Source of the DNA: Kappaphycus alvarezii
Lineage: Eukaryota > Rhodophyta > Florideophyceae > Gigartinales > Solieriaceae
Length of the DNA: 64,000 bases
Reading direction: 5' to 3'
NCBI GenBank assembly: GCA_002205965.3
Contig: NADL03000501.1
Coordinates: 1,240,001-1,304,000, forward strand
Shown here: piece by piece, positions 10,556-60,391 of the stretch
How positions within the stretch are numbered: position 1 is the stretch's first letter
Layout: each line of letters starts with the position of its first letter
Made by a program: the position numbers and the translations under genes
Notes under the pieces: generated by a model
What the model saw: the letters and a program-made list of their open reading frames with translations, nothing else
Database searches by the model: none
What the model was told of the DNA's origin: nothing

Positions 10556-11793
10556 ATGGGAAGAGCCGCCAAGGCCAAGGCCAAGGCGCGCCCCCCTTCG
10601 TGGGCACAGATCGTTAAGGCCCACACGAGCCCTCGAGTTGCTACTGTCCCGTCTACCGTACGCGATTTCTGTCGACTGCAGACAGGATCGCTTAACCTGG
10701 CCACCCCACCGCAGGACGAGACTCCAACACACCGGAGTCGCGCCCCCACACCGAAAGCACCTGTCCCCCTGAATGGTATGACAGGCTTACCTCCTACATT
10801 GGCCCCGATGATGTCCACGATGGCTTTCTCCGCAGGTCCTCCAGGCAGCGGAGCCCTACCGGCCTATGAGGATGCTGGAGTACCCCTGCCCAAGCACGCA
10901 CTCCTTACATCGGGAGACTGGACAATTGTTGCGCACTACGCCGCGGACTCCCAAGATCTCCTGAAATACTCCAGGAGATCCCCAACATTAACAATGGTGC
11001 TCGCCTTTCCCCAAACTCGCTTTCTGAGCTCATCGCCGAGCTCCCCACAACCGAGTGGAAAGTTGGCACTTGCGTCGCTGCTGCGCGCGAAGTCGCAAAG
11101 CTCAAGACCGTGGCCTCCGAAATAACAATGGAAAACCGCAAAGCCCAGGCGGGAGCAATCACCCGCCTTGTCGAGGCAGCAGCAGCAACCCTCCCAAAAG
11201 GGGATGCCCTCGTAGAAAACTTCATCACGAAGTTCTACGCGGGATGCGAGAATCTCGCTCCCCCAAAGATTGACTCAGATGCTGAAGCATCCAAGGACAA
11301 CACTTCCGGACCTGAAAGTCCCACTGCGACCAAAATTGACACGGCCCCACACACCCAAATCAACCAACAAGAAAATGATGCGCCCTTAGAAGAACCCGAG
11401 GATATGCCACCCGTGACAGGCAAAACCTCCAATCCCGACAAACTGCAGACCCAACGCCGGCCAAGACAGCCACCAGGGTCGCATCACAACAGAAGGGATC
11501 CACGGCCCCACGGCCAAAGGACATCCACTCTAATCGTCCCGGGAACCCCTCTACCTCGGCGACGACGACGGAACTGCGTGCAAACCGCACCCGCGCCCCT
11601 TCCCAACGCATGCTGGACATGCAAACGAAGAAGGCAAAGCTCTCCCGTGGTTCTACTGCAGGAGACAAGGGAACTAAAGCATATCGCAACTAGTCCCTCC
11701 TCCAGCTTCGCTTTTCCCCCCTACCCCTGTACATATGCCCACCCACAACCAAGAGAGCTCCCCGTTGAATGTTCTCCTTCCGTCAGTACATGA
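10556..11793 (+). pseudogene. ORF1-like (gag-like) region of the family-A LINE
   Basis: The region starts with a Lys/Ala-rich stretch (MGRAAKAKAKARPPSWAQIV) and continues proline-rich. It shifts frame near 11110 into a stretch with an Ala-rich helix (AGAITRLVEAAAATLPKG) followed by an acidic, then Arg/Pro-rich tail. Position upstream of the RT and this composition suggest an RNA-binding ORF1. I see no CCHC knuckle or RRM, so the function is inferred from position. At least one frameshift breaks it. Confidence 0.5.
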
Positions 11794-19805: not shown

Positions 19806-22800
19806 TCAAGCAGACTGTTCAGACTGCTTCGAAAGCCTCTCTATCTCCATCAGACTTTCAGTATACTCGGCCACAAACCGTTGCATTTGTCTGTTAGCAG
19901 CTGCCACCGGCAATATCGTGTCTTTCAACAGACCGCGGCAACTCATTCCCAGTACTGTCGCGTCCTTTGATGGATTATTGCTGTTCAAGAACGAATCACA
20001 TAACTCTCGTAACCTAACCACGCAATTTTCCACATCATCACTGACAGCGGCAGCAATCCGAGTTGCATAGTTTGCAAGGTAGTATCTATAGTCGACAGGT
20101 GATCCCAGAACAATTGCGGATTCCATGAGAGATTCCAAATGAGACAACGACTCTACAGCTGAACGTTGTAGGTCTGCCATCCCTGACAGTGACGGGAGGC
20201 TCTTGTGAGCCAACCTATTGCCTGGCTGGAGAGAGCGAAGGAGCCCAGCCTTCTTGGGGGACGGTAAAGTCCGCACGTAGTCAGAGTTTGGTGCGGAATC
20301 GTCAGCAACCCTCAGCCAAGAACAGAAATCCCTTGAATAAACAAATGCATGTCCATCAGAAAGGATCAAAATGGGCTCCCCTGAGTCAGTAACCTTGCAC
20401 AGGGAAATTTCTCTTGTTATCCTTGGTTTCATGGTCGGCCCCTCAACTCTTCCAGGCACTTCTGTGGGCCTCGCTAGAAGCGGAGCGGCGCTTCTGGCGC
20501 ATACAAGCTTTTTTGCCCTAACGTCAAACACTGTACAGAGAGCACTCCGTGAGACAACCACAACATACCACTTCTCTGCATCCGACATTACATCGCTGAT
20601 ATATGAGGGGTCGTCTTTTGTAACACAAAAAGCTTCGAGCATGTGCGGAGCAGAATCGATTGCAATCGGTGGAACCATTCTTCTCCCGGATGAAGCGGAA
20701 TACACGAAGAGCATACCATCCCCAGTGCCTACCACTGCGTACTTCTTCGCAATTCCCGCAAGTGATGTTATCGGGGATGACTTCGCGTGATAATCCCGCC
20801 ACTGTACCTCACCGCCACTTGAACACATCACAACATACCCACCGCCATTCCCATGTTGTTCTCGAGATTCTAAAATGACCCGAGGTGTGCCGTCACTGAT
20901 GACCCTGCATCTACCTGGACCCTCCCCACGATCCGGAAGCAGCATCATACTCAAGCCTATGACGCTTGGCGCATAAAGCTCAGCAGCATGTCGCACAGGC
21001 TGGGCACCAGTCGGAAACATGCTATTCATGCGCTGCGGGAGTACCACCGATGCACCGTTGCGTACATTATCACCGTTTGCGTTTACCGCGTTATTTCCTT
21101 TGCTTGGAATACTGTCTCGCGACAGATCCACTTCCGTTTGTGAGGGGTTTGTGCGTGGACGCTTCCATGGTGATTCCAATGTGGCCGCTACCCCGTTTGG
21201 TGCTGATTCAAAGACACCTGGCTGCGTCGCCGGTAAGTGACTGGGAAGGGGAGGGCGGGCAGCTTCTGGAGCAGATGTGACCGCCATCGGCGTAATACGA
21301 CGTTTCCCCCCCTTAACGCGCACCTCAGTCTGAGCTGCCATGATACGCGGATCCGCTGGTGGTGTGGGGCCATTCTCTCGGACAGCAGCAGCCGCTGCCG
21401 CAAGGGGCTCAGGTAGATTGTTTCTCTTATCGGATGCAGAGAGAGGGAGAGGTGCCTTCTGTGGCCCTCTGAGTGCCTCGGAATCCAACGTGTCCTCCAC
21501 AACATCAGCGCGATCAAGCTCGGGATTCACTGCAACGTCGATGGGATCCTGCCGTGATTGCTCTTTAGGTGCTTCCGGTCCGTTAGCATGCTTGGGTTGT
21601 GATTTTCCAGTTTCCGAAGGGGGTGTCCCAGGTACTTCTTGCGGAGACATCGGGGATGGCTGATGTTCTGAGTCTTCCTCTTGTTGTCGACCTAATGCAT
21701 CTTGATCTTCTTGTGGTTGCTCTTCCCGCAACTCTTCTTCTCTCTGCGCTCGATCTTCATCTTGCCTACGTTTAAGCTCCATCTGATGCCTCTTTTCTTG
21801 CTCTTCCTGGAGCTTCTCCAGGGCGACGCGTCTTTCCTCCTCCGCTGCTTCTAGATTCAGCTGGGCAGCAGACTCGACAATAGGAGCAGAACTATCGCCA
21901 TCACCTCCGAATTCCCTCCAGCGGTTGGTTAATATTGTCCTCGTCTCCTCCTTGGAGACAACAATCCCAAGTTCCTCTGCATCAAACCTTAGATACATAA
22001 CCTTCCCATCGGTTGAGCAAGAAACTAGAGTGTACCCGTCGGTGCCCCAGGACAAATCGATGACATCAGAGTCAAACATTTGAGCCATATCAAAAAATGG
22101 TCTCTGCGCAGCGGCCTTCCAAATTGTTGCTCCGCAGTCCTTACTTCCCAGGGCCATGCAGGTGTAAGTTTCGTCTCCACTTGGTAAAGTCTTCTTGACG
22201 AAATCGCCATCTCCTTCTCGTTTCTTGTTCTCCTTTTCGACCTCTTTCCTCAACTCCTCCATTTGTTTCGGATGTGGTCGATACAACCTCGGCGAAAACC
22301 TGGTGGATACAACTGGTTCTCGATGTCCGACAAACTCAATTTGATCCTCGAATGCTTTTTCTCTAGCAAACATTGGCGCATGGTGTGCGCCGGGTTTTTT
22401 GTAAGCGTTAGTTGCCAAAAGGTGACCGCCACAAGGGGACCACGAAATTCGTAAATAGAACGCCATTGAATTCTCCTTAAAGACAGCCAACTCAAAAGGC
22501 TTTGAGATAACCTTTTCGCATTTCCAATCGGATGTGCGCCAAATTCTAACAGTGCGGTCATCGGACTGACTGGCAAGGTACCTGCCGACGGGATCCCAAG
22601 CGACACCCTTGACCAATCCCGTGTGGCCTTGCAGCCTAGCAATAGCTCGCTCGGTCCTCAAACACCAGACGTAGACAATGTTATCAATTGACGCGGAAGC
22701 CAATCGTTGGCCGTCCGGACTCCAGCAAACGTCGGTAACATCGCCGGCATGTCCCCTCAACGGGCGCCTTACCCTCCAATTCTCGAGACCGCCACCACCC

Positions 22801-23153
22801 CCAAACGAGCTAGCCTCACCCGCAACTTGTTCATAGATCAAGAGAACGGCGTCATCTCCAGCGGACGCTAGCAAGGAACCTTGCGGTGCCCATCGAACGC
22901 AATTAACAGCGGAGGAGTGAGATGAAATGGTGGCGAGGAGAGCATCGGGGGGTGGTGTTTCAGAGGCTGTAGGGGGTGGGCCCGAAAGTGGGACGGCGAG
23001 TGAAGCCAGGACGGTTAGAGACCAGATCTTGACGGTGCAATCTTGGCCGGCGGAGGCGAGACGATGGCCAAAAGGTTCAACGTCGACGGAGAAGACTGAG
23101 GATTTGGCACGTTTGCGGCCGTGACGAAGCCATGGGGGGACGTAGAAGTGCAT
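19806..23153 (-). CDS. HIRA: HIRA, replication-independent H3.3 histone chaperone subunit
   Basis: The gene is a single exon. I start at 23153 (1115 aa) because MHFYVPPWLRHG matches the usual HIRA N terminus just before the first WD blade; an upstream in-frame ATG at 23195 would add 14 residues. Residues 1 to about 370 form the WD40 propeller (for example GHRLASAGQDCTVKIW and GRYLASQSDDRTVRIW). A Glu/Arg/Gln-rich coiled coil follows (about 431-490). The ASF1-binding B domain is visible as VRVKGGKRRITPMAV near residue 610. The C-terminal Hira domain follows from about 690 to the end, with a helical tail. In the cell it would act with a cabin1-like partner and ASF1 to deposit histone H3.3-H4 outside S phase. 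The long coiled coil before the B domain is unusual. Confidence 0.93.
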   Translation of the reverse strand: MHFYVPPWLRHGRKRAKSSVFSVDVEPFGHRLASAGQDCTVKIWSLTVLASLAVPLSGPPPTASETPPPDALLATISSHSSAVNCVRWAPQGSLLASAGDDAVLLIYEQVAGEASSFGGGGGLENWRVRRPLRGHAGDVTDVCWSPDGQRLASASIDNIVYVWCLRTERAIARLQGHTGLVKGVAWDPVGRYLASQSDDRTVRIWRTSDWKCEKVISKPFELAVFKENSMAFYLRISWSPCGGHLLATNAYKKPGAHHAPMFAREKAFEDQIEFVGHREPVVSTRFSPRLYRPHPKQMEELRKEVEKENKKREGDGDFVKKTLPSGDETYTCMALGSKDCGATIWKAAAQRPFFDMAQMFDSDVIDLSWGTDGYTLVSCSTDGKVMYLRFDAEELGIVVSKEETRTILTNRWREFGGDGDSSAPIVESAAQLNLEAAEEERRVALEKLQEEQEKRHQMELKRRQDEDRAQREEELREEQPQEDQDALGRQQEEDSEHQPSPMSPQEVPGTPPSETGKSQPKHANGPEAPKEQSRQDPIDVAVNPELDRADVVEDTLDSEALRGPQKAPLPLSASDKRNNLPEPLAAAAAAVRENGPTPPADPRIMAAQTEVRVKGGKRRITPMAVTSAPEAARPPLPSHLPATQPGVFESAPNGVAATLESPWKRPRTNPSQTEVDLSRDSIPSKGNNAVNANGDNVRNGASVVLPQRMNSMFPTGAQPVRHAAELYAPSVIGLSMMLLPDRGEGPGRCRVISDGTPRVILESREQHGNGGGYVVMCSSGGEVQWRDYHAKSSPITSLAGIAKKYAVVGTGDGMLFVYSASSGRRMVPPIAIDSAPHMLEAFCVTKDDPSYISDVMSDAEKWYVVVVSRSALCTVFDVRAKKLVCARSAAPLLARPTEVPGRVEGPTMKPRITREISLCKVTDSGEPILILSDGHAFVYSRDFCSWLRVADDSAPNSDYVRTLPSPKKAGLLRSLQPGNRLAHKSLPSLSGMADLQRSAVESLSHLESLMESAIVLGSPVDYRYYLANYATRIAAAVSDDVENCVVRLRELCDSFLNSNNPSKDATVLGMSCRGLLKDTILPVAAANRQMQRFVAEYTESLMEIERLSKQSEQSA

Positions 23154-25369
23154 GGCTGGATGGATGGATGGACTTTGGAATGAGGAAGGATGCAAGAAAA
23201 GAGAGGGAAGATAGTAAAGGAGTAGTAGGTTAAAGAGGTATGGGATGGGGAGGAGATAAGGGAGGCAGGCGGGATAGAGACGGTGGGCGGGTTACAGAGA
23301 ATATTAGAGGAAATTAGAAAAAAGAATTTGTTGAAGTAAAGCGAAATGGGATGACTGGGGGGTAAGGCGTTTTGGCGGGGTAAGGGGGAAATGTTAGAGA
23401 AACGAGGCAGTATAATGGAGGGAGGGGGGGAGGGAAGGAGGGAAGGAGGGAAGGAGGAAGATGGCGACAACGTGCTCGCAGCTTGAAATGGAAAATAAAA
23501 TTGCGAGAGGATGGCGGTGGGATGGTGCAGGTAAGGTAAACGGAAACACGACGTCTACGTGAAAAGCAACTGTAGAAAACAGCTACATTTTTGCTCAACG
23601 CCGGCAAGCACAGTGTACAGTAAAAACCTGGTCTAAAATAAATGTGCGAAAACAAATGCGGAACCCATCGGATGTCGTCAAGGCCAGAGGAGGGCTGTGG
23701 TAATCGCGGGAAACACAAGTGGCTTTAGCTGGAATATTCAATCAATGGATCACCACTGTGTACAGTTGGATTTGTTTTGTCGAGACAAAAGAACTAGGAA
23801 AAATCACACTGCCCTGTTCATGTGCTTTTCCAACGGCGGAAGAGACTGAGTCAAATGCTAGCACCGTCCTTAATGCCCATGTATGGACGTCCTGGATTTT
23901 TTGCAGAGTTGAATAAAAAAAAACCAAAAAGCAGACGAGCAGAATGCCTTTTTTGGTTTATTTTGCTTGGTCTTCCGAGTGACTCTCTGGAATAATGATC
24001 CAGGTGTGCTATTTCACAGCAGGCCCTTGCGAGGTTGTGCTGATATCGAGGCTTTCAGAACCAATAACGAAAACTGCGTTTGACATGTCTTTCACGGAAA
24101 ACTTTCCACTGGTTTTGCTTAATTTATAGGCAGACTCACGACATTTCATACCATGACTCAATTAAACGCAATCCTCCGGTCTGCATAGAATTTCAGATTT
24201 TTTTCCGTCGGGCCGTCCATTCGTTAAGAGGACTCAAATTTTTTTCAAAAAAGGCCATGACCTAACCCTCCCTGATCCCAATTAGCGGCAATATCAAATC
24301 CTTTGGCTATATGTACAGTATTCGACAAGCATATTGCTCTCTGTACTGTATTGAAGCTATCCCACAACTGCAAGCTTTTCAATCGAAAGTGTTCGAAAGA
24401 ATTGCGTACAGTATTTGGAACTGTGCATTAATTCTCACCTATCAGATTGCCGCGGTGGTTGTAGCCCACCTAGTCCCCCATCAGTGTGAAACTAAAATGT
24501 TCGACCCGCCAGATCTCACTGTCCGCGCGCTCCATGTAATTACATATTCCAGACTTTAGTTAGCCATTCTGCGCCTTGGTTGCATCAAGGGAACACATAT
24601 GTGGCAGGATCAAAATATACTGTCAAACAAAAGGTTTTATTACGTGAGGATTGCATCCGATCATACTTCAGTTCCTGAAACTGAAATAAAGCTACCTATC
24701 CTAGTACAGTACAGTACTTGTCCTGCCGTGGTTACCCTTGCTTACAGTACGGAATGTAATGTACAGTAACATCTTCCAGATTGTGTTTGTACGGTACACT
24801 GACTGGTACAGTACAATACTTTACATTGCAGTTACTGTACATACATAGCATTACACCAAATATGAAATACCATTACACCAGTAACTGCAATTAGATTCGC
24901 CTAATCTAATTATGAACAGGCATTTCTTACTCTATACGTGGCTATTAAATTAGGCCAACAGATTTTCGCACCTACTTTTTTGGTATTGCGCGAAAATGAA
25001 TTAGGCCAACTTAAAATTAGCTAATATGCACAAATACGTTTGAGAGAAAGAACTAATTGTAATCGCAATTCAATCGTATAGGATTCTATGCAAGTCGCTT
25101 ACAATCCTGCACCATCGGCTCTGTACTTAGTGTCCAACGGAGAAGCAAATGTACTCATATGAGTACAAATGATTGTTCGAAAACATGTAGATTTTTTAAT
25201 TAAAATTATACATTGGTTTGTTGAATGAGGAAACTTTACTTTAATACTCTTCACTGAGTATTTATCGTGTACACTGCAGGTCTGACTATACGATTAAGAA
25301 CTAGCCTATAAATCCCTGGGGGATACAGGAAACTTCGATTATCGACAAAATCTTTCCAAACATTAAAAT
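23154..25369. other. Intergenic region upstream of HIRA
   Basis: No gene is supported. It contains the HIRA 5' flank with a G-rich tract, a cluster of TACAGTA-type motifs at about 24700-24840, and a short hairpin at about 24889-24911 (AATTAGATT and AATCTAATT around a 5-nt loop). Open frames here are short and lack motifs. Confidence 0.45.
23416..23459 (+). repeat. G/A-rich simple tract, possible G-quadruplex, upstream of HIRA
   Basis: The + strand carries repeated GGGA and GGAA units with at least five runs of three or more G. It lies about 260-310 bp upstream of the HIRA start codon, so the HIRA sense strand is C-rich here. The spacing of the G runs satisfies the usual G-quadruplex pattern. 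Any effect on transcription is not shown. Confidence 0.55.
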
Positions 25370-36178: not shown

Positions 36179-36617
36179 TGTTGGTGTAATTACTTTCTGT
36201 TTCCTCTTCTGACAGCTTACAGCTATTAAAGAGGCTTACAGACGCCTTTCACTGTACATTACTGCGCAACCTAGAGCTTGACTGTTTTGGTTTTTCATTG
36301 TACCGTGCTGTAACCTTGAGCTGATCTTCTTTAGATCATCTCAGGCAGGTTTAGGGTTAGCCTCCCACCGTCGTCTACATAGTCTCTGGAAACTTCCTTC
36401 GGTCACCCAGAAGGACCAGTTGACTCGCCTCGAGGTCTGTATAAGCCCTGGTCGCCCTCCATGTTCTGTTTGAGTAAAGTGCCTCACCACCTTCTCTCTT
36501 CTCAACGCCCTTCCATGGACCCCCACTCCTTCTTTTCCAGAACTCTCTCTCCCACTATCCTTCTCTCGATCCCTCCTTCTCTCTTTCCTTCGCTCCATCT
36601 AGTCCTTCCCTCTATCA
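36179..36617 (+). repeat. 5' LTR of the Copia element
   Basis: 439 bp, TGTTGGTGTAATTAC to CCCTCTATCA. It carries a TATA-like TGTATAAG at about 36439, just after CTCGCCTCGAGG, and a long CT-rich tail. These fit the U3 promoter and the R/U5 region. Confidence 0.9.
36437..36446 (+). promoter_or_regulatory. Candidate TATA box in the 5' LTR
   Basis: TGTATAAG lies about 180 bp before the LTR end and is positionally matched by CTACATAAAC in the 3' LTR and CTATATTG in the truncated LTR. It would set the start of the genomic RNA. Confidence 0.45.
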
Positions 36618-36633
36618 GGTTATGGACCCAGGC
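36618..36633 (+). other. Primer-binding site complementary to the initiator tRNA-Met anticodon arm
   Basis: GGTTATGGACCCAGGC begins directly after the 5' LTR. Its complement reads CTGGGTCCATAACC, the anticodon stem-loop of an initiator tRNA-Met with CAT as anticodon. Drosophila copia is known to prime from an internal position of this tRNA, not from the 3' CCA end, and this site has the same form. Confidence 0.7.
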
Positions 36634-37939
36634 CTCTAACGCTGCTCAACGACTTACGTCTTCTTCGGTACTCTACCCTACACTCCGTATATGGGAGGAA
36701 AAAAAACTCCGCGCAGGCTAAGGTGAAATAAGCTGCTTTTGGTTTGTGCTTGATCTTTTCGTCGTGTCTTCATTATCTACTCACTTCTTTCTTGTGGCCT
36801 GTCTAACGTTTTTCGTTTCTGCACTACATCCCTCGGTTTTTTTGCGGCCTGTCCTCGTCCTACATCTTTGCACCACAGAACACAGTTTATCTTGCGGCCC
36901 TACTTCTTCCCGTTGCTACCGTCTCTGTGCTATATACCTAGGATTGTTTCACGGCCCGTGGCTCGTTTCAACGGTAAGTCCAAACAATCTCGCACTCCTT
37001 CTTTCTGTATCCACCCACTCTACTGCCTTAGACCCCGCCTAACCTCGGAACTACTTTCCTCCATTGGTCATCTGTCGTTACGTCTTTCGTCGCGGCGTCG
37101 AGATCGTCTCAGACGATCCTGTCGTTCGCAAGCTCTGCTCGATTTACAAGAATACCATCGCCCCAAGTGTCGCTTCATCGAAGACTCAGCCATCGAGTCA
37201 ACGGAGAGGGTGGAGACGCCTCCGCTACCGCTACCACTCCAGACGTAGTTTTCATTCCTCCTTCTCCTCCTCCGAAGAAATATTTTCTTCTGCATATCCT
37301 TTCCCTTGCAAAGAAGAAGAATGTTACCGGAAATTCTTCGAAGAATCCCATTAAACTTCGGTCGAAGCCCATTCCTGTGTCATCTACTCGCATCAAGAAG
37401 GCCACATAAGGACGTTGGAACACCAAGCCGGATGCTTCCGTCAAAACGTTTTCTTTGATTTCTCCGTCTCCGCTTTTGCTCCTTCGACTTCAGTTCAGCC
37501 GACTACGTCTCCAGGTACTCTCTCTCAGTCCCTTATATCGCCTGCTGCTCCACCTCCTGCATATGCTCCTCCACCTGCAAGGGTTACGACTTCTGTATCC
37601 TTTGAACCTCTCTCTTTGGCTCCTCTTCCCCTCGCTCCTATTCCTCGATCTTCATTTCCTGTCCCGGCCACCAAACCGAATGATTCCTTCCTTGTTTGAG
37701 ATCTTTTCCAGCTAAAGTGTCTAGACCAAAGTAGTTCGAGCAGCACAGAGGAGGTAAGAGGTGTCGGAACCGCACCGAGAGGAGAACATCCACTTCTCCC
37801 TGTGTCTGCTGCGATCGCTAGTTCCAGAAAAGGTACGACCGCGACAAACACATCCAGCGCAGAAATAATTAGACTGCATCTGAGATCACTGTGTACCTTC
37901 TTCGCTCAATCACAGTTTCTAATCACTGTACTGCATTAA

Positions 37940-40900
37940 GTCATGCATTCCTCTGGAGTTCGTGTCGACAGTCTCGAAAAGCTCTGCGATGACAACTTAC
38001 ACATCTGGAAGTCCCAAGTGCAGCTATTACTCTAATTATAGAGGGTGACGACCACCTCATAGGAGATCTTCCAGAGGCTTCCTCAATAGTATACTCCTCA
38101 TGGAATAAAGCAGATTTTAAGGCACGCCCATTTATCGGATTGACTCTCTCTGATACAAATCTCGAGTAGGTACATCATGCCAGCACCGCCAAAGTCATGT
38201 GATCTCTCATTTACGACATCTCTGAATAATACTATTTTTAAACAATTTAGCTGCGACTCGTCGATCCTACACGGCAAAGATGAAATAAAACTATAATATA
38301 CTTCCGTTTACCTATAATTCGTCCGCTTGTAGCCACTCTGAAGGAGATGTCGGTCAAAGTAGAGGATATTGAGATGGCCACGGCCTTTATAAATGGGCGT
38401 CCGGGTCTTTTTGGCAGTCTCAGCTCAGCACTTGATGCTGCACACAATAATGACGTCAAACTTTTGTTTGAATTCTTCCAGAGTCGATGCCATCAGGAGG
38501 AACAGCATCATGCTCAACATGAACATGATGCCTTGAATTCCTCGTAATCTGCAGCACTTCTAGTAAAAGAATATTCGAAATTCAAGCGAGATCACCCTAC
38601 ACAAATTTGTATATAGTGCGGAAAACATTGCGACAGCACTCGCTGCTTTAAAAAGTACCCTCACCTCGCTTCTGTTGGCCATCCTGCTCTAAATTGTCTA
38701 CATAAGTCCCTTGTTGGCGTAAATGAACTTGTAGCCTCACAGGAACGTATCATTGAAGAAGAATGCAAGGAACTTGTATTTCTACTTAACATCTCTGAAG
38801 GTCCAAATTTGGCTCACTCAAATAATACTCTTTACGTTAAAACAGGATCTACTCTGGGTGGCAGTAGTATCGAGAGTTCCAGCTGTCTACTCATTCTCTT
38901 CGAACAGACGAATGTTGCACGACAGACAATTGGCGCAACAACCTCACTTTCAAATGGTTATGTTATTGATTCTGGATGCACTTCGTATGTGACGCATGAT
39001 CGCTAAGGTTTCACTATTTACAATACCTCTTCATTCCCTTCAGCACTGGATCTAGGAGCAGACTCCTCAGCGCTCATCGATGGATCAAGATATATAATCC
39101 TAACTCTTCAAAAAAGTGGCGCGACAGTCAAATTTATGCTGAAGAAATTTCTGCACGTTCCGAGCTTACGCTGTCAAAATTTTCAGTACATTCTATGTCA
39201 AATAGAGGGATCAGCTCTCATTTCGATCACAAGGGAGTGTCTCTCGTCAGTGGTACAAACGGCTCTACGCTTGCAACTGGAACACTTATTAATGGTTTAT
39301 ATATATTAAAAACGGCCCAGGACTCATCAACGCCTGCTTTCTCAGATGTCTCCATGCTAATTTCTCTTTCAACATGGTACGAACGACTAGCACATGTCAA
39401 CACCGGTGCCATTAAGTCAATGGTCACAAATGGGACCGTACACGGCTTTAAGCTCAAAGACTCAAACGAAAATGACTCTTGCTTTGTTTGTATCCTTGGA
39501 AAGTCGCATCGTGTCCCGATTCCTAAGACAAGGGATACTCGCTCTACAAGGCTCCTTGAGGTAGTTCACGGAGATATTTTGGGACCTGTAGAAACTCCTT
39601 CGCTTGGCGGCGCAAGGTTTGTTGTATCATTTAGTGGCGAATAATCCAAATGGACGATCGTCTACACTTTGACGCACAAGTCAGAGGTTCTGTAATCTTT
39701 CAAAAAGTACAAGGAACTCGCAGAAAAACACACTAGTCGATCTCTAATAAAACTTCACGTTCATGAATTTCATAACAATTATCCCGCTCCGGAAGAGGAC
39801 CCTCTCCTCCTCAAAGCATTACAATCTAACAATGGCTGCTATTATATCTCTTCCTTTTTCAAGTATTTCCTCTCCTTAGAAGGTATTCAACATCAGCTCA
39901 CGGTATCACACACGCCTCAGCAAAATGTTTTTGCTGAACGATTGAATAGCACACTTCTCAACTTTTTCCGCTCGGTGTTGCATAATGTGAGTCTTACCAA
40001 ACACTTCTGGGCAGAGGCTCTCTCCACCGCTGTTTATTTTATGAACGGAATAACCTCCAGCTATATACCAGACAACTCTACCCCATATTTTCATTCGAAC
40101 CGGGCAACTCTAAATATATTGCATCTGCGAGTATTCGTATCACAATGCTGATATGAAATCCCTAGAAAAGACCCTAAAAGCTGGATTCGAGGTCAAGGGA
40201 AGCCCTTATGATGGGTTAATCCTTGAAAAATAAAGGTTACAAGCTTTGGGATATCGAGGCAGAGAAACAGGTTTGTATCTCGAGACGAAATATTCATTGA
40301 GTCTTGAAATTCAGAAGTTCAATGTACTACAGAAGACCTCGAAGAGTATTCCGAACAAGACCGTTTCCCAGCTGAAGACAATTCCTCATTGGGAGAAATT
40401 TCCACACAGTCCCCTACAGCGCAAGATACTGAAGAAGTAAAAGTGTCCCCGGAAAATGACAATCATACTTCACTTCAGGATGAATCCTATCTAGTAATCC
40501 CTCGCAGCTCATCTAGAATATCTAGGAAGCCAAGTGAGTGGTGTGTTCCTAGCCTGATTTATCTCTTATTGCTGATACTGCATCGACCTCCGTCGGCATC
40601 CCTTCTTCGTACGAAGACGCTACTCCTCCCGAGAACATCGATTTCTGGATGCCTGGAATCAAGAAAGAAGAAGACTCCATTAGAGAAAATGGAACTCTCA
40701 AACTTTTCCATGGAAGCCAGCAATATACGTAATTCCTTATCGCTACCTATTCCGCTTGAAACCGTAAGTTGGCCCGAAAGTCCGCATCGTCGCCAAGAGA
40801 TTTAGGAAGGTCCCTGGATTGAAATACAACGACACGCATGCTCCTGTAGTTTCTCTGTCTGTTATCCGCATATTTCTTTGTTTGATAAATATCCCCGACC

Positions 40901-42070
40901 TCTAATGTGATCAAATGGACGTGGTGACCGCATTCCTTAACGGATGTTTGGAGGAGGAGCTATGTATATGGAATCTCTATCCGTCTTTCGTGATGCAAAC
41001 AATCCTGATCAAGTTTGAAGACTTCTAAAAGCCTTGTATGGGCTGAAGCACGCCCCACGTCAATAGTATGCCAAAATACACTATTTTCAACCTCAATTCT
41101 TCGATTCGAGAGCAACTCACATGAACCATGCCTTTATGTATCTAGGCATGGTAACTAAGTCTCAACAATCGTGCTATACGTCGATGATATTTTGACTGCT
41201 GGATCCAATAGAGCTTGATTGGAAAGATTGAAACCTGAGTTGAAGATACACTTTAAGATGGAACATTTTGGTCTTGTCAAAGAGTTTCTGGGAATCCAGG
41301 TTGTTCGTCATTGTTCAAAAAGGACTTTGCACAGTTCCCACGCTTCTTACACGGAGAAAGTACTCAAAAGTTTCAAAATGGGTGACTCAAAGCCCGTAGA
41401 AACTCCTATGGTGCTTTCAGATGGGGACAAAAGCGAGCAAAAGGACAGGTAACTTCTTTCTTCGATACCGTCTCTCTCCGCAATTGGTAGCCTCATGTAT
41501 CAAATGATATGCATTTGTCCAGACATTGGCTTTACAGTTGGAAAACTTTCGCCTCCCTGCGAAAGGCTTTAGGTGAGTTACTGGAAAGCAGTAAAGCGAG
41601 TGTATCGCTACCTCAAGGAAACCTTGAATCTTGTTATTTGTTACGGACCCTTTTCTGCCGCTACGATTATCGATTAAAGCGAATCCGATTGGGCAGGCTG
41701 TCGCTCAACTTGCAAATAAACCGAAATTTTTGTCTTCATGATGTCTGGAGGGCCTTTCTCATGGCGCTCCAAGAAGCAAGGACGTGTCTCCCTGTCTTCC
41801 TGTGGAGCAGAACATGTCTCGCTCTGCACTGATTCTAAGAAAACCATTTGGCTCTCCAATCTCCTCTCTGATGTTACGGTGGCAAAACATCCCACACCGA
41901 TTTCAATCTTCGCTGATAACTCAGGATCGATTAGTTCTGCCAAGAACCAGTCCATCGACGACCGAAATAAGCATATTGATATTTGGTACCACTTCATTCG
42001 TGAGACATTAGCCGGAAAGCAGATCCGGATATATCATTGCCGAACCGAAGATCAAGTTTCCGACATCTGA
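37940..42070 (+). pseudogene. Decayed Copia gag-pol
   Basis: In order: a Gag start with LEKLCDDNLHIWKSQVQLLL (about 37960-38030); a zinc-knuckle remnant CGKHCDSTRC (about 38616-38645); protease active site YVIDSGCTSYVTHD (about 38960-39000); pre-integrase and zinc region WYERLAHVNTGAIKSM to CFVCILGKSHR (39375-39510); and integrase core with VHGDILGPV. The block normally reading DNG reads QSNNG (about 39825), and TPQQNVFAERLN retains the Glu. Next comes RT with QMDVVTAFLNG (about 40917), YGLKHAPR and LYVDDIL (41175-41195), then RNase H with PFSWRSKKQGRVSLSS and KHIDIWYHFIRE (41738-42070). Several stops and frameshifts, plus the Asp-to-Asn change, make it non-functional. A proline-rich frame (about 37455-37700) lies before gag. 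Confidence 0.88.
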
Positions 42071-42200
42071 AAAAGCCATTGTTTCGAGTTAAGTTTCTGA
42101 AGTTTCGACGTGAGATGGGCATCGTTCTTCCTAGCTTTCCCAATTCGTTTTGTATTATTTTTTCAGGTTGATGGGGCACTATTGTGGTCAGTTATAGTTT

Positions 42201-42209
42201 GAAGGGGCG
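42201..42209 (+). other. Polypurine tract of the Copia element
   Basis: GAAGGGGCG lies immediately before the TGTTAG start of the 3' LTR, the normal position of the plus-strand primer. Confidence 0.75.
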
Positions 42210-42647
42210 TGTTAGTGTAATTACTTTCAATCGCCTTTGCTGACAGCTTACAGCTAGCAAGGAGGCTTACAGGCTTCTTTTACTGTAGTTTGCCATAAAA
42301 CCTAGGACCTGACCTTTACGCTTATGCACTGTACAGTGCTGTAAGCTTGAGCTGATCTTCATTAGATCAGCTCAAGAAGGATTAGGGTTACCCTCCCACT
42401 GTCGTCTACATGGCTTCTGGAAACTTCTTTCGATCGTCCGGAAGCACCAGTCGGCTCGCCTCGAGGACTACATAAACCCCGGTCTCCCTCCCTGTTCCGT
42501 CTGAGTAATGTCCCTCACCACATTCTCTCCTCTCAACTCTCTTTCTTTGTCCCTCAATCACTCTCTCTCACACTCTCCCTTTCACTCTACTTCTCTCGTT
42601 CCTTCCTTCTACCTCTCCCTCGCTCCGTCTCTTCCTTCCCTCTATCA
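42210..42647 (+). repeat. 3' LTR of the Copia element
   Basis: 438 bp, TGTTAGTGTAATTAC to CCCTCTATCA. It is collinear with the 5' LTR and carries many substitutions relative to it. Confidence 0.9.
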
Positions 42648-51673: not shown

Positions 51674-52574
51674 TCAAGCAATAGCATTCATACGTGTCCT
51701 CCTACGGGCTTGCGCTGCTTCCTCCCTTGCACTTCTCAGATCCGCTTTTATCTCTTTTTCAATTCTTTCTTGATGCCTCCTCTCCTCCAACGTTGCGAGA
51801 AACTCGATTAAATCGCCACGGCCTACCTCTATTCCAATCCTTGTGTCGACGAATCCTGCTCGAACGCGAGGAACTGGCATTAGGTTACGCTTCACTTGAA
51901 GCATGCACGCTCTGCTATCCCTGACGACTGCTTCCAATGGTAGTAAGTCTGCACTCTCGTACGATTCTCTAATTCGGCAACCAACTGCAATGGAAACGTC
52001 AAGGGGCCAAATACCTGCTCTTCTGAAACCATCCGTAATGTTCTTGACAGTGAAAGCCTTTCCATAGGACTCTTCTGTATAATCCCAGACATGGCGGCCG
52101 TGTAGCTTACGCGAGCCAGAAGATAGCTAACATCCATACGCCAACGACATGCGCATTACTGACTCATTGGTATAATTCTTTAGAGGACCAAAAACAGATA
52201 ACTCAAGCAGTGGCAGACGATCACTTGTGTGAGACGGTAGAGCTACAGCGGCAATCCGAGTATTTTTCATTTGGGTAATTGCACTTGAATGTAAATGGGA
52301 GCGACAGGCATCAAAGAAAACAACAATCCATTCTTCGACAGGATGTTTAGCGCGGACGACTGTGATGAAGATAGATACCTATCTTCTGGAAACAGTTCCA
52401 TCGACGCTGTCAACATCGCGTCGCCAAAACGGAAACCAGCCTTCGGGCATCACATTAGATACTTTCTCCGAGCAAACACCATTGTGTAGTCTTGGCTCAC
52501 TGCAACCCTTGAAAACCGCTGAAGGGGCAACAGTTTCTCCGCTTGCGCTTGACACAGACCAAAAGGGAAATACT

Positions 52575-52654
52575 TGTTGATATATATATGTTGTGGTCCG
52601 CTCAGTGCCACAAGAGAGCCAGCGCATGTGGCTCAGTGGTTAACTTTTTCAACA
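52575..52654 (+). repeat. Left 80-bp LTR of the miniature element
   Basis: Starts TGTTGATATATATATG and ends TTTTTCAACA. It contains the A-box-like GTGGCTCAGTGGTTA at about 52628-52642. Confidence 0.8.
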
Positions 52655-52704
52655 GGTTATGGGCCCAGTTGACGTTGCCGCTGTGGTCGAGGCTTCGAAC
52701 CCCT
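52629..52704 (+). promoter_or_regulatory. tRNA-like A box and B box inside the miniature element
   Basis: TGGCTCAGTGGTTA (from 52629) fits the tRNA A-box and D-arm consensus. GGCTTCGAACCCC (52691-52703) fits the B-box and T-loop consensus with two changes. Their spacing of about 50 nt is that of real tRNA genes. The A box lies in the LTR and the B box in the interior. This could be an internal RNA polymerase III promoter; a chance match remains possible. Confidence 0.4.
52655..52668 (+). other. Primer-binding site of the miniature element
   Basis: GGTTATGGGCCCAG is the exact complement of CTGGGCCCATAACC, the anticodon arm of eukaryotic initiator tRNA-Met. It is one base different from the first 14 bases of the Copia primer site at 36618. 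Confidence 0.75.
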
Positions 52705-52799
52705 CTGGGTGCACTGAGTTGGATATTTGTCATGAGCTTTACTACAATGCTCTGTGTAAGCCCTGAACCCCTCGACAAGCATCTTGTGGTAGTGCCTCT

Positions 52800-52811
52800 G
52801 AGCGAGGGGGG
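52800..52811 (+). other. Polypurine tract of the miniature element
   Basis: GAGCGAGGGGGG ends directly at the TGTTG start of the right LTR, as expected for plus-strand priming. Confidence 0.7.
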
Positions 52812-52891
52812 TGTTGATATATATATGTTGTGGTCCGCTCAGTGGCACAAGAGAGCCAGCGCATGTGGCTCAGTAGTTAACGTTTTAAACA
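52812..52891 (+). repeat. Right 80-bp LTR of the miniature element
   Basis: Starts TGTTGATATATATATG and ends GTTTTAAACA. It is near-identical to the left LTR. Confidence 0.8.
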
Positions 52892-53603
52892 ACACTTTTT
52901 ACATACTGAAAATTGACCTTCTGCCAGGTCCCGCTTACACCGGCAGACTTAACAACTCGTCTCTCCTTCTTTCCGACTAGATCTCTCCCCGGAGAAAATC
53001 CTGTTTCATCCAGATTGTAAACTTGGCGAGCAAACTTAGTATTGTAGTGTCCGTACAGCAGCTCCACCTGGGCGAAGAACTGGGCCACAGTGTCAGCATT
53101 AAAACATCGAACACGAAGCTAGTCGACAGGGCGGTCCATAATGAAACTTAATTTGTCTGTATGGCTAGCCAGAAACCTTCGAAACCAGAATCAGAAAACT
53201 TGGTTTGAAGAAGTCGTTTAGATGCCGCGCCGGCTGTGTTCATGTCATCGTGGTATGTACGGGCAATGTCGCATATTTCTCCGGAGTACAGATACACCTG
53301 CTTCTTGAGACTTTCAATCGCTCGTCGTACTACCTCTTCTTTCTGTTCCTCTGTCAGTACCTTTGCAACATTTCTTCTCCTCGAGGTGATAAAAAAGCGA
53401 ACCATTCCTGTTTTTTGCACTTCTAGCGGATAAAGGTACTTCCAACGCTGCAGAGTTGACTTCGACAACTTGAACTGAGTACCAAAGTTCTCTTCCGATA
53501 CCTTGCGGCATGATTCACCCTTGTGAATCTTCTCCAGCGCAATTATAAACGCATTGCATGCCTTTGCTGCCATTGCCTTTGTAGCGAATAGAGTGTGAGT
53601 CAT

Positions 53604-54243
53604 GGCTTACATGGATGTCTGTAGAGTGCGTGTAGATTTTGCAGTGGTGGAGAGATAAAAAGGGAGAAAGGGAGCAATGATGGAGGACCAATGTCGAGGT
53701 AGGATCAATGATGAAAGGGGATCAATGATTATGGCTAATGCTTATGATATTCATTTATTGCAACCTTTTTTGAAGGGCTTATTTGAATTAATCGTTTCCC
53801 GCGAACTTGGTCAGACTTTTAAAAAGGGCCGTTTCTGGTGTACTTCTTCGATTTTGAAACTGTTTTGCCCCGGCATCCTATTGACAACTCCATGGAGAGG
53901 CATTCTGCGAAGTTTCACTTGGAGAACTTGGTGCTGTGCCGAGAAATAGGATTCTGTAGTGCGGTGACTCGGTAAGTGAAGAGTACTTTTTGTGTGATTT
54001 CTTGCAATTTTCATACACTTTTTAGGTTTTGTTACCGCGAAGGATTTTTTGGTGTCCCACAGACTGATCGTGCACTGTTACTAGATGTGGCTGCGGGATC
54101 GCTGAATATAAACGGCTTAGAAGTTAAGACGACCCTCAACTCACGTACATCGAAACCCTCCAACCATTCCTGGATTCAATAACAGACTTGGAAGAAAAAC
54201 ATTAGCGTTCCAACTACTGCGATCATACTTTGGGGTATACAAA
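53604..54243. other. Spacer with one intron-like segment
   Basis: No gene is supported. On the + strand a GTAAGT at about 53973 and a T-rich CACTTTTTAG at about 54017-54026 could bound a ~55-nt intron. The flanking frames (one 90-codon frame from 53677) show no known domain. Confidence 0.3.
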
Positions 54244-55275
54244 ATGGGCAACCTCCTGCGAGTCCTGCCCCCGTCCTGCACCACCGAAGGCGCAACAGAG
54301 TTTGATCGCAGAGTGGAGCGCTGTCTACGGTCCATCGCAGGGAGTGTTCTTAACTCCGAAGTCTTCCGAAAGCTCCAGTTGCCGGTCAAGCCCACGGACC
54401 CCAGAAAGCCCTCCTTGGGAATAGGGCTCACCTCCGCGAAAACTATCTTCCCCGCAGCCTTCCTCGCGTCAAGCTCGGCAACGGACAAGCTGGCCAGATA
54501 CTTCCTGTCACCGCCAATCAAGTTTCCGGAAACATACGCCGCCGCTGTGGACGCTCATCGGAAGTGGCCCCTGTCTTGCCTTCCGTCCATGATCATTCCG
54601 TTCAAAGTGTTCTGCCCTCAAAAAACATCATCGCAGAAGACACTGACGGATGCTTCTCATGAGGCAGTGCAGCAGGTAGTTTCCACTGGAGAATGTAGGA
54701 GGGAAGCGTTCCGCGCATCCATGGCGCTTCCGGGCTCCAAACAGTGGGTGTACTGTGCGCCATGTCCCGGACTACAAACGCACATCGAGGCCCGGCAATG
54801 TTCCCAGTGGCTCCGATATCACTGCCAGGTCCCGCTGTTTGCTCCTGGCACACCATGCCCAAGACTAAATTGCCCTCACACGTTGTTTACGACTATGGTG
54901 ACCACCTCCTCCACTGCCTGCACGGCCCCCATAGGAACATTCGCCACGACCGGCAAGTGAATCTTTTGGCTAGGGATCTGGCCAAAGCCGCCCGTCAACC
55001 CGTCGTAGAGCCACAGGAGGGCCTCCACCGCACGAGACCGGATATCCGAGCAATGGGAAGCCACGGAGGGACTGACTTCTTTGACATCACCTTTGTCAAT
55101 CCTCTTGCGCCATCGATCAGGAGAGTCAACACGTTCAACCCGTTGACCTCCCTTAACGCAGCCCGAGCGGCGAAGCACAGAAAGTATCAACCCTTCATTG
55201 CTACTTCCTCTCGAGACAGACTCGTCCCCGTGCCCGTATCCACTCTCGTCGGTTGGCATCCTGACGCAAGTTCTC
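54244..55275 (+). mobile_element. 5'-truncated family-B LINE copy
   Basis: One frame starts just after the RT region of a LINE (IGLTSAKTIFPAAFLASSSA corresponds to the post-RT LGG block). It continues FRASMALPGSKQWVYCAPCP, matching the copy at 14.74 kb. Near 54890 the frame shifts. The Cys/His cluster YGDHLLHC..NIRHDRQ follows, then RPDIRAMGSHGGTDFFDITF and ARAAKHRKYQ. Similarity to family B stops at about 55275, in the sequence encoding GWHPDASS, exactly where the inverted family-A copy starts. The endonuclease signature is preserved but the copy lacks an RT and carries a frameshift. Confidence 0.82.
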
Positions 55276-57045
55276 CATGAATTGAGGCGAACCGATCGGG
55301 GCACCGAGGAGGTCAATGCCGTGATTTGGGAAGTTCCCATTTGGGAAGCGGTGCAGTAGGGGTGTCACAGTAGCAGGTTGGCGCGGCCAGAATAGGCGTG
55401 TCTTCGCCAGGTTTAAATACAGGCAATGATCAGGTCCCTTAGACCTAAGGATATTGACGGCCTTGTCGAGCTCAGTGTGACTGCCTATAAGGGTGCAGTC
55501 ATACGCATACCGTCTGTGTAGATGGAGTTGGGTCTGATCAGAATTTTCTCTTGCCAGGGGTGTATGACAAGAGAGAAATCAACATGCTTGCTGGGTCCCC
55601 TTGTTGCATCCCTTCTTGGCTGTGGATGTCTTGTGTGGGTGACGCAGGCAAGATAGGCAACAGCATTTGACGAGCATACACCATGTTCAGAAAGCAGCAT
55701 AACCACGGCACTTTGGTTGGCAGGAGGTGATCACTTTCTGTCTCGAGAAGCGGTTGAACGCATTATTCGCATCCACTGAAACGAGTGCGTAGTCCTCCTC
55801 TTCACCTTTTCTGACAACCAGTCTCCGGGCTTCGTGTACGATAGAATCCAGTCCGCAGTGCACTCCGTTGGCCATCTGCAGTGGAGCGAGGTATTCCTTC
55901 GTGCCTTCGAATGCCTGGGTTAGGAGCACTCTTGTCACCAGTCGCCCCAAGGCCGTCCCAACTGCAATTGGGCTGATCTTGTCTGGCCGGGGTCGAATAG
56001 GCAACAGCGTCGCAGAGGAGATAAGGGGGATTGTCTCATTTGGGAGGTCTCCGTGAGCTAGTCTCGTCACAACAGCTGTTAGTACCGAGATACCCGTCAC
56101 CCCAGCTTCAGGGCTCACCCGTGTGTTTGCCAGCAGCTGCAGGAGTCGCGGTGACATTCTGTCAGGGCCAGGTGCGGAGTTAGGGTTCAGGCGTTGGACC
56201 GCGCGTGGAACCGTTTCCTCCGAAATGTCCACCGGGAGCGGCAAGTCTCTCGCTTCTATAGCTCTCACTGGAGACTGCGTTGCTGGGTGCAGTTTTCGCA
56301 GGCTTTCGATAACTTGCAGGTCGCGCACATCAGCAATGTATGACTAGAGCAGGGTGCGCGTGGCTCGCCCATATTGCGCATCTGCAGCAAGATGGGCTGC
56401 CCTGCGGAATTTCGCGTTGCGCATTGCGTCGTTCTGTAGAGGACGTGGTCGGACCACTCGTTCTTCTTTTTTGTGGTGTGCTTGAATCGCCTCAGTCCAT
56501 AAATCGGCCTATTCACCAGCAGAAGCGCGTCGTATTCGCTCGCAGAGTGCCTTGCTTTTTCTTGTCTTGGACTGCCACCCGGCTTCCCTCCACATTAACC
56601 GTCGTAAGACTGCAGTGGGAAATAGGTGCATCCAGAGGAAGGCAAAGTGGACAACATCAGGATTCCATGCATTGGCCGCGGCGCGAAAAAGTGAGAGGAA
56701 TAAGATGGCGAGGCTATGCAAGCATGTCCCGGGGATGCGGTCAAAGATGTCGGAAGGCCGCAGCGGGGTGTGCAGCGCATCATGTAGTGACGGAAGGAGA
56801 ACATTCAACGGGGGGCGCTCTTGGTTGTGGGTGGTATATTTGAACGGGTGTAGGGGAAAAGCGGAGCTGGAAGAAGGACTGGTTGCGAGATGCCTTAGTT
56901 CCCTTGTCTCCCGCAGTAGGACCACGGGAGAGCTTTGCCTACTTCGTTTGCATGTCCAGCATGCGTTGGGAAGGGGCGCGGGTGCGGTTTGTACGCTGTT
57001 CCGTCGTCGTCGCCGTGGGAGGGGGGTTCTCGGGACGATTAGATT
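55276..57045 (-). mobile_element. Inverted family-A LINE segment with reverse transcriptase
   Basis: The reverse complement matches 11530-13300 closely over its whole length, including long stretches with few differences. The RT part (56328-55687) has an intact frame across the region shifted in the other copy: NSAPGPDRMSPRLL, AVVTRLAHGDLPNETIPLIS and VSVDANNAFNRFSRQ. Further down the frame breaks before the YADD block. The upstream part (57045-56330) corresponds to the ORF1/ORF2 junction. It ends at 55276 inside a 7-bp sequence, GTTCTCC, shared with the adjoining family-B copy. Confidence 0.88.
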
Positions 57046-57083
57046 GCAATGCAGTTATTGTTTGCATGTCATGGAAGTGAATA

Positions 57084-57547: not shown

Positions 57548-60391
57548 TCAGGTGGTGGGGTATGTTCTCTGCTTTCGGTGATAAATCATTACTGCGGTGT
57601 ACTGTATAACAAATGCCGAGACACGTGTCTTAAGCTTCCGGAATTCAGACATAGGATGCTTCCTTCGGCGGTCAGCAGTAAAGCTGCTCATGTCATGGAA
57701 CGCCTGGAGTCCGGTTGCCCCAGGTTGTCCGTAGATGTCGATGGACATAGGTAGAAGCTCCATACCCTCGGAACGACAGGGTAGCGCATAGTGTTCCCTT
57801 TTGCGCTTTTCGGCTCGTGTCAGTGCTGAGAGACCTCCGTCTGCCTGGTTGCGATATAGCGCGGAGTGAGGACTGACAATGGTGACGTCAATACCCTGTA
57901 GTGTAGGCGCGAATAAGGGGTCGTCGATGACGAGGTCCAGTGCGCGTTGCTCGGCTGGGCTCTTGTGAAGGTCTGCGGCAAAGACTCGCTCCCGAGTTAC
58001 GGTGAGGGAGATGGCCGGGCTAGTAAGTTCCCGGTATAGAATATCCCGAAGACGGTTGTGACGGCGCACCGCACCGACACCTTCTTTGCAAGTTGATGCG
58101 TGGTGGCCCACAGTATCCAGGAGCGGGGGAACAGTGTAGTTACCTTCCAGGCATGTAGGGTAGCGCTGGAGGCCACAGAATATTGGGTTACCTAAGCGAA
58201 GGTCGATCATCGTGCGCCATATCTCCCCTGCGGTGTACAGGTCAGTGGACGGCAGCGGAAGTGATGAGAAAGGAGCGGAAGCCGTTGAGGAGGCTGTCTA
58301 GGCAAGCCGCGTAAGAAAGTGCGATGAGGAGGCGGAAGGGGTCGAAGCGCGTAGAAGGGAGAAGCGTGAGCGGTGGAAGTGACTGGTGATTTCTTCCTCG
58401 AGGGAGTGAGCAAAGTTGTCGTCGATGTGGTTCGATCGTGACAAGAGTGCCTCTAGTCGTAGTTATGCAGGGAGGTCCAGACTTGTGGCCAGGGTGTCGT
58501 AAGATGGGGCCAAGAGCCTGGCAACATGCGTGGAGTTCGTGTGCAGTGATCGCCGAATGAGTGGCATGTTCGTCACATTGGAGACCATGTAAGCGATGAC
58601 GTTGACGGAAGTGCATGGGGTGAGCCCGAGGCCGCCATGGCGGAATGGTAGCGTGGCTTGTAGCAACGCGATGTCCGACATCTTCAGGTGAACTTGCTCG
58701 AAAACCCTTCGCAACCCCTTGTCAAAAGCTTTGGCAAGTGGTAAGGTAATGTGCGGTGGGGTTGAGCGGAACAAGTACATAACCAGACATGAGGAGGCAC
58801 AGAATCGGAGAATATGGAATGAGATCTGAGGCTCGTTCATGGCTGTGAGGGATGTCCAGAGTGACTCGGCCTTCTGCAGTGCTTTGATGGCCAGGGAGGT
58901 GCATGCATCCGGGGTGCCAATCGGGCTACCAAGAACCGTGATAGCTTCAGAGGCGAGAACTTCGCATGGCAGGTGATGTAGGAGAGAGTGTGGTGAGGGA
59001 GAGGGCCACCAGGCCGACGTTTTGTTGAGGTTAACATGGAAGCCGAAGTTCGGGCCGTTCAGGCGCAGGTAGTGGAGAACGGCGTGGGCTTGTGAAATGG
59101 GAACAATCAGTGTTCCATCGTCAGCGTACCATGTGTGAAGCGGGAGGGCAGGGAAATTGGATGCTAGTCCTTGTGCAAGGGGGTAGAGGGCAATAGCGAA
59201 GAGTAACATGCCGAGGGGGTCTCCCTGTTGGGTGCCAGTTCGACTCCATATGAGGTGACGTCCGAAGAAGAGGCGGGAAGGAGCCCCGTAGAGGAAGTGG
59301 ACCCATCGTGCGGCCGCCGGGATGCGGCGGATTGCCTGAGAGAGAATTTTGGAACGCTCAATTGAGTTGAAGGCGTTTCGGGCATCAACTTGAATGAGCA
59401 CGTGGGCGGTGTCATTATTCTGCAGTTCGTGTGTGCGTGCCCGAGTGGGATGGACGATGGCTTCTGTAGCACACGGGCACCTACACAGAGTTGATGGGGC
59501 TGCAGGTAGTTGGCCAACTCTTGATCACCTCGAATTCGTTTCATTACCAGGCGCCCTACCAGTCGACGGATGGCAAGGCCAATCGCTATGGGGCGGAGGG
59601 TGCGACATGCTTCATCTTTCGGGAGGCCCAATAGGGTAGCGCTTGCGACATATTCACTAGTCGCAGTGGGGCAATTCCCGTCGACCAGACTGTTGATGAA
59701 GGAAGTGAGCCACTTGAGGGCCGAGTTCGAGGGCTCGGCCCCGCCAGGGGCGTGTGCAAGAGCCTTGAGTATGGAGGGGCGAAGTCCATCCGGGCCAGGA
59801 CTGCTGGGGGTACGGGAGTCGTCGCAGCTGGCGGCGGACTTCGGCTTCGGTGAACTTGTACGGTGGGGCAGGGTACCTCTGTCGGATCGGTTTGCGGGAT
59901 TGGAAAGAGCGGGATGGAGGGGACCGGAGCTTGTCGGCATTTGCCAAGGTGGGCGGGACTGGTGGGGGTGCAGCAGTGAGGGCTTGGGCGGCTTTGTGTG
60001 GAGAACCGTTGAGCAATGCCCGCTTGCAGCGGTCTTGTTGGGATCGGATGGGAATTGCTTTTCGGTGGAGGACTGCGCCAAAGGCGTCAGCGGCTTCGTC
60101 AAGGAGGCGGGACCACTGCCCCTCTTGTGCTAGTCTGATCCTTCGCTTGAGGGAGGCGACCAGGCTCGGGCGATGCCGGTTTCGTAGTTCACCTCGGCCG
60201 TTCTTGCGTAGAACCAGTTTCGCAAGGGCCATGATTTTGTAGAGGTTGTCAGTGCGTGCCTGTGCATTGCGGGCCTCAACGAATCGCCTGCAAAGACTTG
60301 CCACCAGGGAGTGAAAAGGAAGGCGAAGGGAATTTGGAAGATAGGGCAGGGTAGGGACAGGGAGTGAAAGACAATCGAGGGAGGCGGACAT
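57548..60391 (-). pseudogene. ORF2 of the family-C LINE: RT and restriction-like endonuclease
   Basis: ORF2 starts MSASLDCLSLPVPTLPYL at 60391. Helical N-terminal blocks (MALAKLVLRKNGRGELRNRH, RIRLAQEGQWSRLLDEAADA) lead to FTEAEVRRQLRRLP. After a frameshift near 59850 come SSPGPDGLRPSILKAL and LRPIAIGLAIRRLVGRLV. After another near 59400 come motif A IQVDARNAFNSIERSK, motif B GTQQGDPLGMLLFAIALYP and motif C WYADDGTL (about 59109-59132), then LPFRHGGLGLTP. Further frame changes precede the C terminus with HHASTC..RRHN, LDLVIDDP and GIDVTIVSP (about 57871-57895) and KRKREHYAL. The RT core motifs are intact but the frame is broken at least three times. No APE domain is seen. Confidence 0.85.

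Follow-up and report, generated by a model that had tools for sequence, protein, structure and literature searches.

What is the 317-bp insertion at 52575–52891 of the window, the 64,000-nucleotide stretch of DNA analyzed here, and how could a sequence without coding capacity have been mobilized? The earlier note had read it as an LTR retrotransposon in miniature, inserted in a dead transposase. On the forward strand, two direct repeats of 80 bp each (52575–52654 and 52812–52891; 95% identity, start-to-start distance of 237 bases) enclose an internal region of 157 bp. The left LTR has the ends TGTTG..CAACA, which are identical in other copies, while the right LTR terminates in AAACA. The primer binding site GGTTATGGGCCCAG lies at 52655–52668, immediately 3′ of the left LTR, and the purine tract GAGCGAGGGGGG lies at 52800–52811, immediately 5′ of the right LTR. 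The flanking pentamers ATACT (52570–52574) and ACACT (52892–52896) differ at one base. The terminal repeats, the 14-nt primer site, the purine tract and the imperfect 5-bp flanks had all been described from the letters, and we read each of them in the same way. Thus, 52575–52891 is a non-autonomous, non-coding miniature LTR retrotransposon (TRIM): it is shorter than 1000 bp, has two LTRs, encodes nothing, carries a primer site and a purine tract at its internal ends, and is associated with target duplications of fixed length.

The insertion lies within a broken transposase of DDE_1 type on the reverse strand (51677–53606, an extent taken from open pieces). In a profile scan of window pieces, the Pfam DDE_1 match has an E-value of 1.1e-5 and covers 52130–52378 only; four other window pieces scanned against Pfam contain no transposase match. 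The reading frames of the transposase are interrupted. When the host genome was searched with the surrounding stretch, nine other loci were found in which the left and right flanks are only 2 to 9 bases apart. Two of these nine, C709 and C809, were compared with the joined flanks and align without a gap at the junction, so that the element and one of the two 5-bp target copies are what is missing from them. These uninterrupted relatives identify ATACT and ACACT as the left and right copies of the target duplication. Collectively, the DDE_1 match, the interrupted frames and the insert-free relatives bear out an insertion in a dead transposase.

Copies were searched for in the host genome assembly (G000; 336 Mb, 884 contigs). 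A similarity search gave 72 matching rows from the 40 scored of 373 candidates, with ends as in the window copy. The LTR/primer-site junction has 145 matches at no more than two mismatches and the LTR core has 359, while the reversed control of each has none. From 119 loci, which are a non-random sample because they were picked by similarity or junction pattern, we resolved 129 chains of LTR and internal matches. These comprise 60 chains of the form LTR-internal-LTR, 30 internal-LTR, 20 single LTRs, 8 with three LTRs, 5 LTR-internal, 4 with the internal region only, one array of 28 LTRs and one irregular chain.

Target duplications were counted in chains with an LTR at both ends, minus those sharing a flank with an earlier chain, which leaves 57 distinct chains. 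Exact 5-bp duplications flank 17 of the 57, against 0.31 expected from shuffled right flanks, and four of five bases match in 8 others (1.49 expected). In the remaining 32, part of which lie inside composites, the flanks agree at three bases or fewer. The 40 chains without an exact duplication thus include some inside composites, together with one group whose ends are mis-trimmed (L015 and three others sharing its flanks); the figure of 17 is unadjusted for this group, in which the duplication CACGG is exact. Solo LTRs with exact duplications are also present (L065 and L075). The many genome-wide copies with coinciding ends, the target duplications and the solo LTRs, which the earlier note had named as checks, support its reading as a miniature LTR element.

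The primer site is the exact reverse complement, over 14 of 14 bases, of the anticodon stem-loop of initiator tRNA-Met. A 17-base word containing that complement occurs at eight loci of the assembly (reversed control, 0), and ARAGORN identifies all eight as tRNA-Met with the anticodon cat. The tRNA survey is limited to these loci, and since they were selected with that very word, their agreement does not test the match independently. By its complementarity, the primer site is predicted to pair with the anticodon region, not with the 3′ end of the tRNA, as in copia-type priming. Drosophila copia primes with initiator tRNA-Met. Priming at the anticodon region of a tRNA, which has been described for copia and Ty5 (PMC10886601, in the part available), is the likeness between the window element and copia or other half-tRNA-primed Copia elements; in contrast to these autonomous elements, the window element encodes nothing.

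Copia-type reverse transcriptase is abundant in the assembly, with 8199 candidates, of which 150 were scored and five loci were taken from these 150. All five sampled Copia loci contain the exact 14-mer primer site. In L142, it directly follows the LTR, and in L144 it begins one base past the aligned LTR end. The LTR pairs of these two loci are 100% and 99.7% identical, respectively, and their duplications are CTGCG and AGAAA in a by-eye reading with the boundary shifted by one base. The junction of purine tract and LTR, GAGGGGGG/TGTTG, is common to the TRIM, L142, L144 and L145, and L143 has it with one more G; it was not found within the stretch of L146 examined. The window itself contains an old Copia-like element on the forward strand (36179–42647), assigned to Copia by eye from translated pieces. 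Its LTRs (36179–36617 and 42210–42647) are 78% identical, and its primer site (36618–36631) matches at 13 of 14 bases. A separate stretch at 3916–4149 resembles these LTRs at 83–85% and is perhaps a solo or partial LTR.

Junctions between the two kinds of element were observed from both sides. Internal sequence opens 32 chains at the primer site, and in 8 of these it is preceded by a sampled Copia LTR whose end lies at the TRIM primer-site junction or no more than 6 bases from it; the LTR is of the L142 type in five (L070, L073, L077, L128 and L137) and of the L143/L146 type in three (L111, L114 and L135). L070 and L077, which lie on two contigs, have identical flanks, and a common left flank is seen at C471 and C882. 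These shared flanks reduce the number of independent events to at most four for the L142 type and at most two for the L143/L146 type. The other left ends form small recurring clusters that match none of the sampled types, and a few are decayed TRIM LTRs. Left ends unlike TRIM or sampled Copia LTRs precede the TRIM internal region in L092, L093, L104, L132, L113, L123, L124 and others. At the opposite junction, a second primer site follows a TRIM LTR in 16 chains, and Copia internal sequence comes next in 10 of them; the Copia sequence of L041 sets in some 670 bases past the start of the internal region, and that of L067 matches over 36 bases.

Three composites are surrounded by matching 5-bp flanks, namely, C765 (CCCTC), C175 (ATACG) and C739 (CATAG). 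C765 is a Copia internal region flanked at both ends by TRIM LTRs, and C224, which has the same flanks, was counted with it as one insertion. In C739, the TRIM unit sits between the Copia 5′ LTR and the Copia primer site, and the right LTR end is slightly unlike that of L142. From the ends, from reverse transcriptase matches between them in C765 and C739, and from one internal piece in C175, we infer that each of the three is one continuous element. Three further candidates were rejected as duplication-flanked composites: the flanks of C161 mismatch, and the right flanks of C471 and C882 differ from their common left flank. The left end of the C20 composite was not found, and this composite was excluded from the duplication count. 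The chimeras joined at the primer site point to co-replication of TRIM and Copia, and these chimeras, with the primer site and junctions shared with Copia, point to Copia as the probable mobilizing partner. For tobacco, evidence has been published that a mini-element and endogenous Tnt1 elements switch templates with each other (PMC2923131, in the part available); such a route to chimeras therefore has a precedent, and here we infer it from the junctions. The partner of a TRIM and the formation of its arrays are usually inferred from shared motifs, and junction chimeras within matching target duplications tie this TRIM to particular Copia types in one genome.

TRIM units are also arranged in tandem. 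The largest array (L028, contig C23) consists of 27 units of 230–238 bp with 28 LTRs inside one exact outer duplication, GTCGG, and a two-unit array (L012) has the outer duplication TTCGG. The units of L028 have a mean identity of 96.9%, with no trend by distance over lags 1–13. Rather than during reverse transcription, arrays and composites might have formed later, by unequal crossing-over among the LTRs of inserted elements, and we give this explanation a substantial chance, somewhat short of even. Unequal exchange would also keep a single outer duplication, and the test of a common origin does not reject a single clade for the 27 array units (p-AU 0.144). The tree of 125 internal regions, however, places some array units among dispersed copies, and for two of these units the branch is starred. 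Moreover, crossing-over alone does not place a Copia LTR or internal region beside the TRIM primer site within one duplication. Two observations on the arrays stand apart from this question. The two-unit array on contig C20 shares a neighboring flank sequence, GGAGTTCGG, with the Copia-type composites of C471 and C882 (L012, L156 and L158). In addition, two units of L028 (L028:5853-5945 and 6087-6177) yield ARAGORN calls, one of tRNA-Thr and one of tRNA-His, and such calls are a possible origin of false tRNA genes in annotation.

To consider how the element might be transcribed, we compared it with the tRNA model of Rfam, which matches 52622–52713, across the boundary of the left LTR and the internal region, at 16.3 bits. 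The best of the other copies reaches 24.2 bits, still short of the gathering score (29). The E-value of the tRNA match is 0.25 over 4227 families, or by arithmetic about 6e-5 for the tRNA model alone. Box A (TGGCTCAGTGG, a pattern match at 52629–52639) is inside the left LTR, whereas the box B position (52692–52702, within the tRNA-like T-arm at 52689–52705) begins 38 bases beyond the LTR end; the primer site lies between the two. The window copy deviates from the box B pattern. In an alignment of 40 copies, 30 read TGGCTCAGTGGTT over the 13 bases of the box A stretch, and 23 read GGTTCGAACCC at box B. The right LTR has the box A position (52866–52876) with no box B after it, and the right LTR and any solo LTR thus hold the box A part only. 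ARAGORN reports a tRNA in one of 15 loci scanned (the two units of L028), and none within the window or in the other 14 loci. The box A and box B signature suggests that Pol III might transcribe the element.

If the element were instead a canonical TRIM with a Pol II promoter in its LTR, and the tRNA-like boxes an ancestral SINE relic or chance without a role, several of these observations would be accounted for. The tRNA score is under the curated cut-off, and the same Rfam search gives other weak matches on the copies, all of them sub-cut-off; they include one of up to 23.5 bits to Plastid-ycf2, on the opposite strand, and one of up to 17.1 bits (E 0.0014) to tmRNA. In 34 of 40 left LTRs, a T run of at least four bases separates the two boxes (52645–52649 near the left LTR end of the window copy), column conservation in box B is no better than in the whole element (0.938 vs 0.931), and some copies have an unrelated left end in which box A is not clear. 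Nevertheless, the strict pattern, box A and box B at a spacing of 25–110 bases, is present in 28 of the 40 copies and fails in 12. It never occurs in the controls, which were 2000 shuffled versions of one copy, 1800 shuffled versions made from six copies, and 398 stretches of equal length taken from both strands of the rest of the window. In its commonest form (17 of 40 copies), the T-arm has a perfect 5-bp stem and a 7-base loop. An 80-bp LTR would also leave scant room for a Pol II promoter. We regard transcription by Pol II with idle boxes as unlikely. On the element strand of the five sampled Copia loci, the narrow box A/box B pattern has no match.

As a whole, these observations are best explained by a miniature element that has a split Pol III promoter and is replicated by Copia machinery, an explanation we consider likely. 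Pol III would start near 52622 in the left LTR, directed by a box A that the LTR contains and a box B a short way into the internal region. Such a transcript would require the polymerase to pass the T run that separates the two boxes, yet stop at its twin in the right LTR (52883–52886), which is the proposed terminator. The resulting RNA would have short terminal repeats, with a predicted LTR division into U3, R and U5 of about 47, 28 and 5 bases, respectively. This RNA would be packaged by Copia proteins, its first strand would be primed by the 5′ half of tRNA-Met and its second strand by the purine tract, and the product would be inserted by Copia integrase. Transfer of the second strand at the primer site to another molecule might chain LTR-internal units together, and such chaining would yield the Copia chimeras and perhaps the tandem arrays.

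Within the explanation by a split Pol III promoter and Copia machinery, a more specific version is put forward tentatively, as possible but not probable: the LTR end and the primer site are lodged between the two boxes, 3′ and solo LTRs are silent, and both the arrays and the Copia composites arise from reverse transcription. If so, only a whole left LTR plus internal region would constitute the promoter, and each unit added to an array would bring a complete one. The split promoter predicts that RNA starts at 5′ LTRs only.

Two readings of the family as something other than an LTR element mobilized in this manner have far less to recommend them. A tRNA-derived SINE or a satellite, with tandem copies that merely resemble LTR elements, would fit the tRNA-like region and the arrays of 230–238 bp units, yet it leaves aside the TG..CA ends, the primer site, the purine tract, the Copia joins at the primer site, and the 5-bp duplications that flank solo LTRs and entire arrays as well as single copies, and we find it highly improbable. 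A SINE as such is rejected, since SINEs have no LTRs and are LINE-mobilized, whereas this element has LTRs and 5-bp duplications. Small LTR elements in arrays are like retrozymes, but the least probable reading of all, a retrozyme-like element replicating via self-cleaving circular RNA, is rejected because no ribozyme family in Rfam, including the hammerhead expected in the LTR, matches the window copy or 11 further loci at up to E 10.

Among known systems, the window element resembles Helenus (TRIMp3; Kojima 2024, PMC10886601), a group of miniature LTR elements that bear a tRNA-like signature of a Pol III promoter, and it probably works like them. According to the available part of that paper, fungal Helenus elements have mostly anticodon-loop primer sites, including those for tRNA-iMet, 5-bp duplications and a presumed dependence on Copia, and Helenus sizes of 311–1263 bp are comparable to the 317 bp here. 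Both the 5-bp duplications and an anticodon-loop primer site are present in the family of the window element. In contrast, Helenus is defined by tRNA-like sequence in the LTRs, and the window element lacks this defining feature because its tRNA-like sequence extends beyond the LTR, with box A in the LTR and box B internal. The hosts in Table 1 of that paper are fungi, animals and Selaginella, with no alga. A promoter split across the LTR edge was not found in the available part of the Helenus paper or in the literature searched; if true, the split signature would place a tRNA-type TRIM in red algae.

The small size, two LTRs and short internal region are shared with the TRIM/SMART elements surveyed by Gao et al. 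2016 (PMC4717578), which, in the part of that paper available, show 5-bp duplications in maize examples and tandem arrays with a single outer duplication, known from plants. Unlike those, the window element has a partner supported by junction chimeras. TRIMs had already been reported there in Chlamydomonas, Volvox and the red alga Chondrus, and the earlier suggestion that an algal-type host would extend the range of TRIMs consequently falls. In the main text of that source as available, the term "polymerase III" is absent and 5S sequence is mentioned for Cassandra only. Cassandra, the 5S rRNA TRIM, has a small-RNA-gene promoter, to which the putative promoter here would correspond, and likewise forms tandem arrays (PMC10886601 and PMC4717578, available parts). 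Its promoter is of 5S type and lies within the LTR, whereas the signature here is of tRNA type and split; a Cassandra-type element is rejected, as the window copy and 11 further loci have no 5S match in Rfam to E 10. The Pol III signature, the anticodon-loop primer site and the Copia chimeras, the last of which are invisible in the window, go beyond the earlier reading.

The host itself is probably a red alga, as judged from phycobilisome linkers (17 matches in the assembly) and from a light-harvesting protein that has 7y5e, presumably a Porphyridium structure, among its best matches in the PDB. No rbcL was found in the host assembly, and thus the plastid lies outside it or the gene was missed. 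Elsewhere in the window, 11526–13303 and 55268–57046 form an inverted repeat of about 1.8 kb, 88–95% complementary by piece, with arms about 42 kb apart, and an RVT_1 match (58463–59401) lies near the second arm. Additionally, the window contains two long, uninterrupted convergent frames, an AAA/RFC1-like frame at 16358–19729 (1123 aa) and a HIRA-like frame at 19806–23195 (1129 aa).
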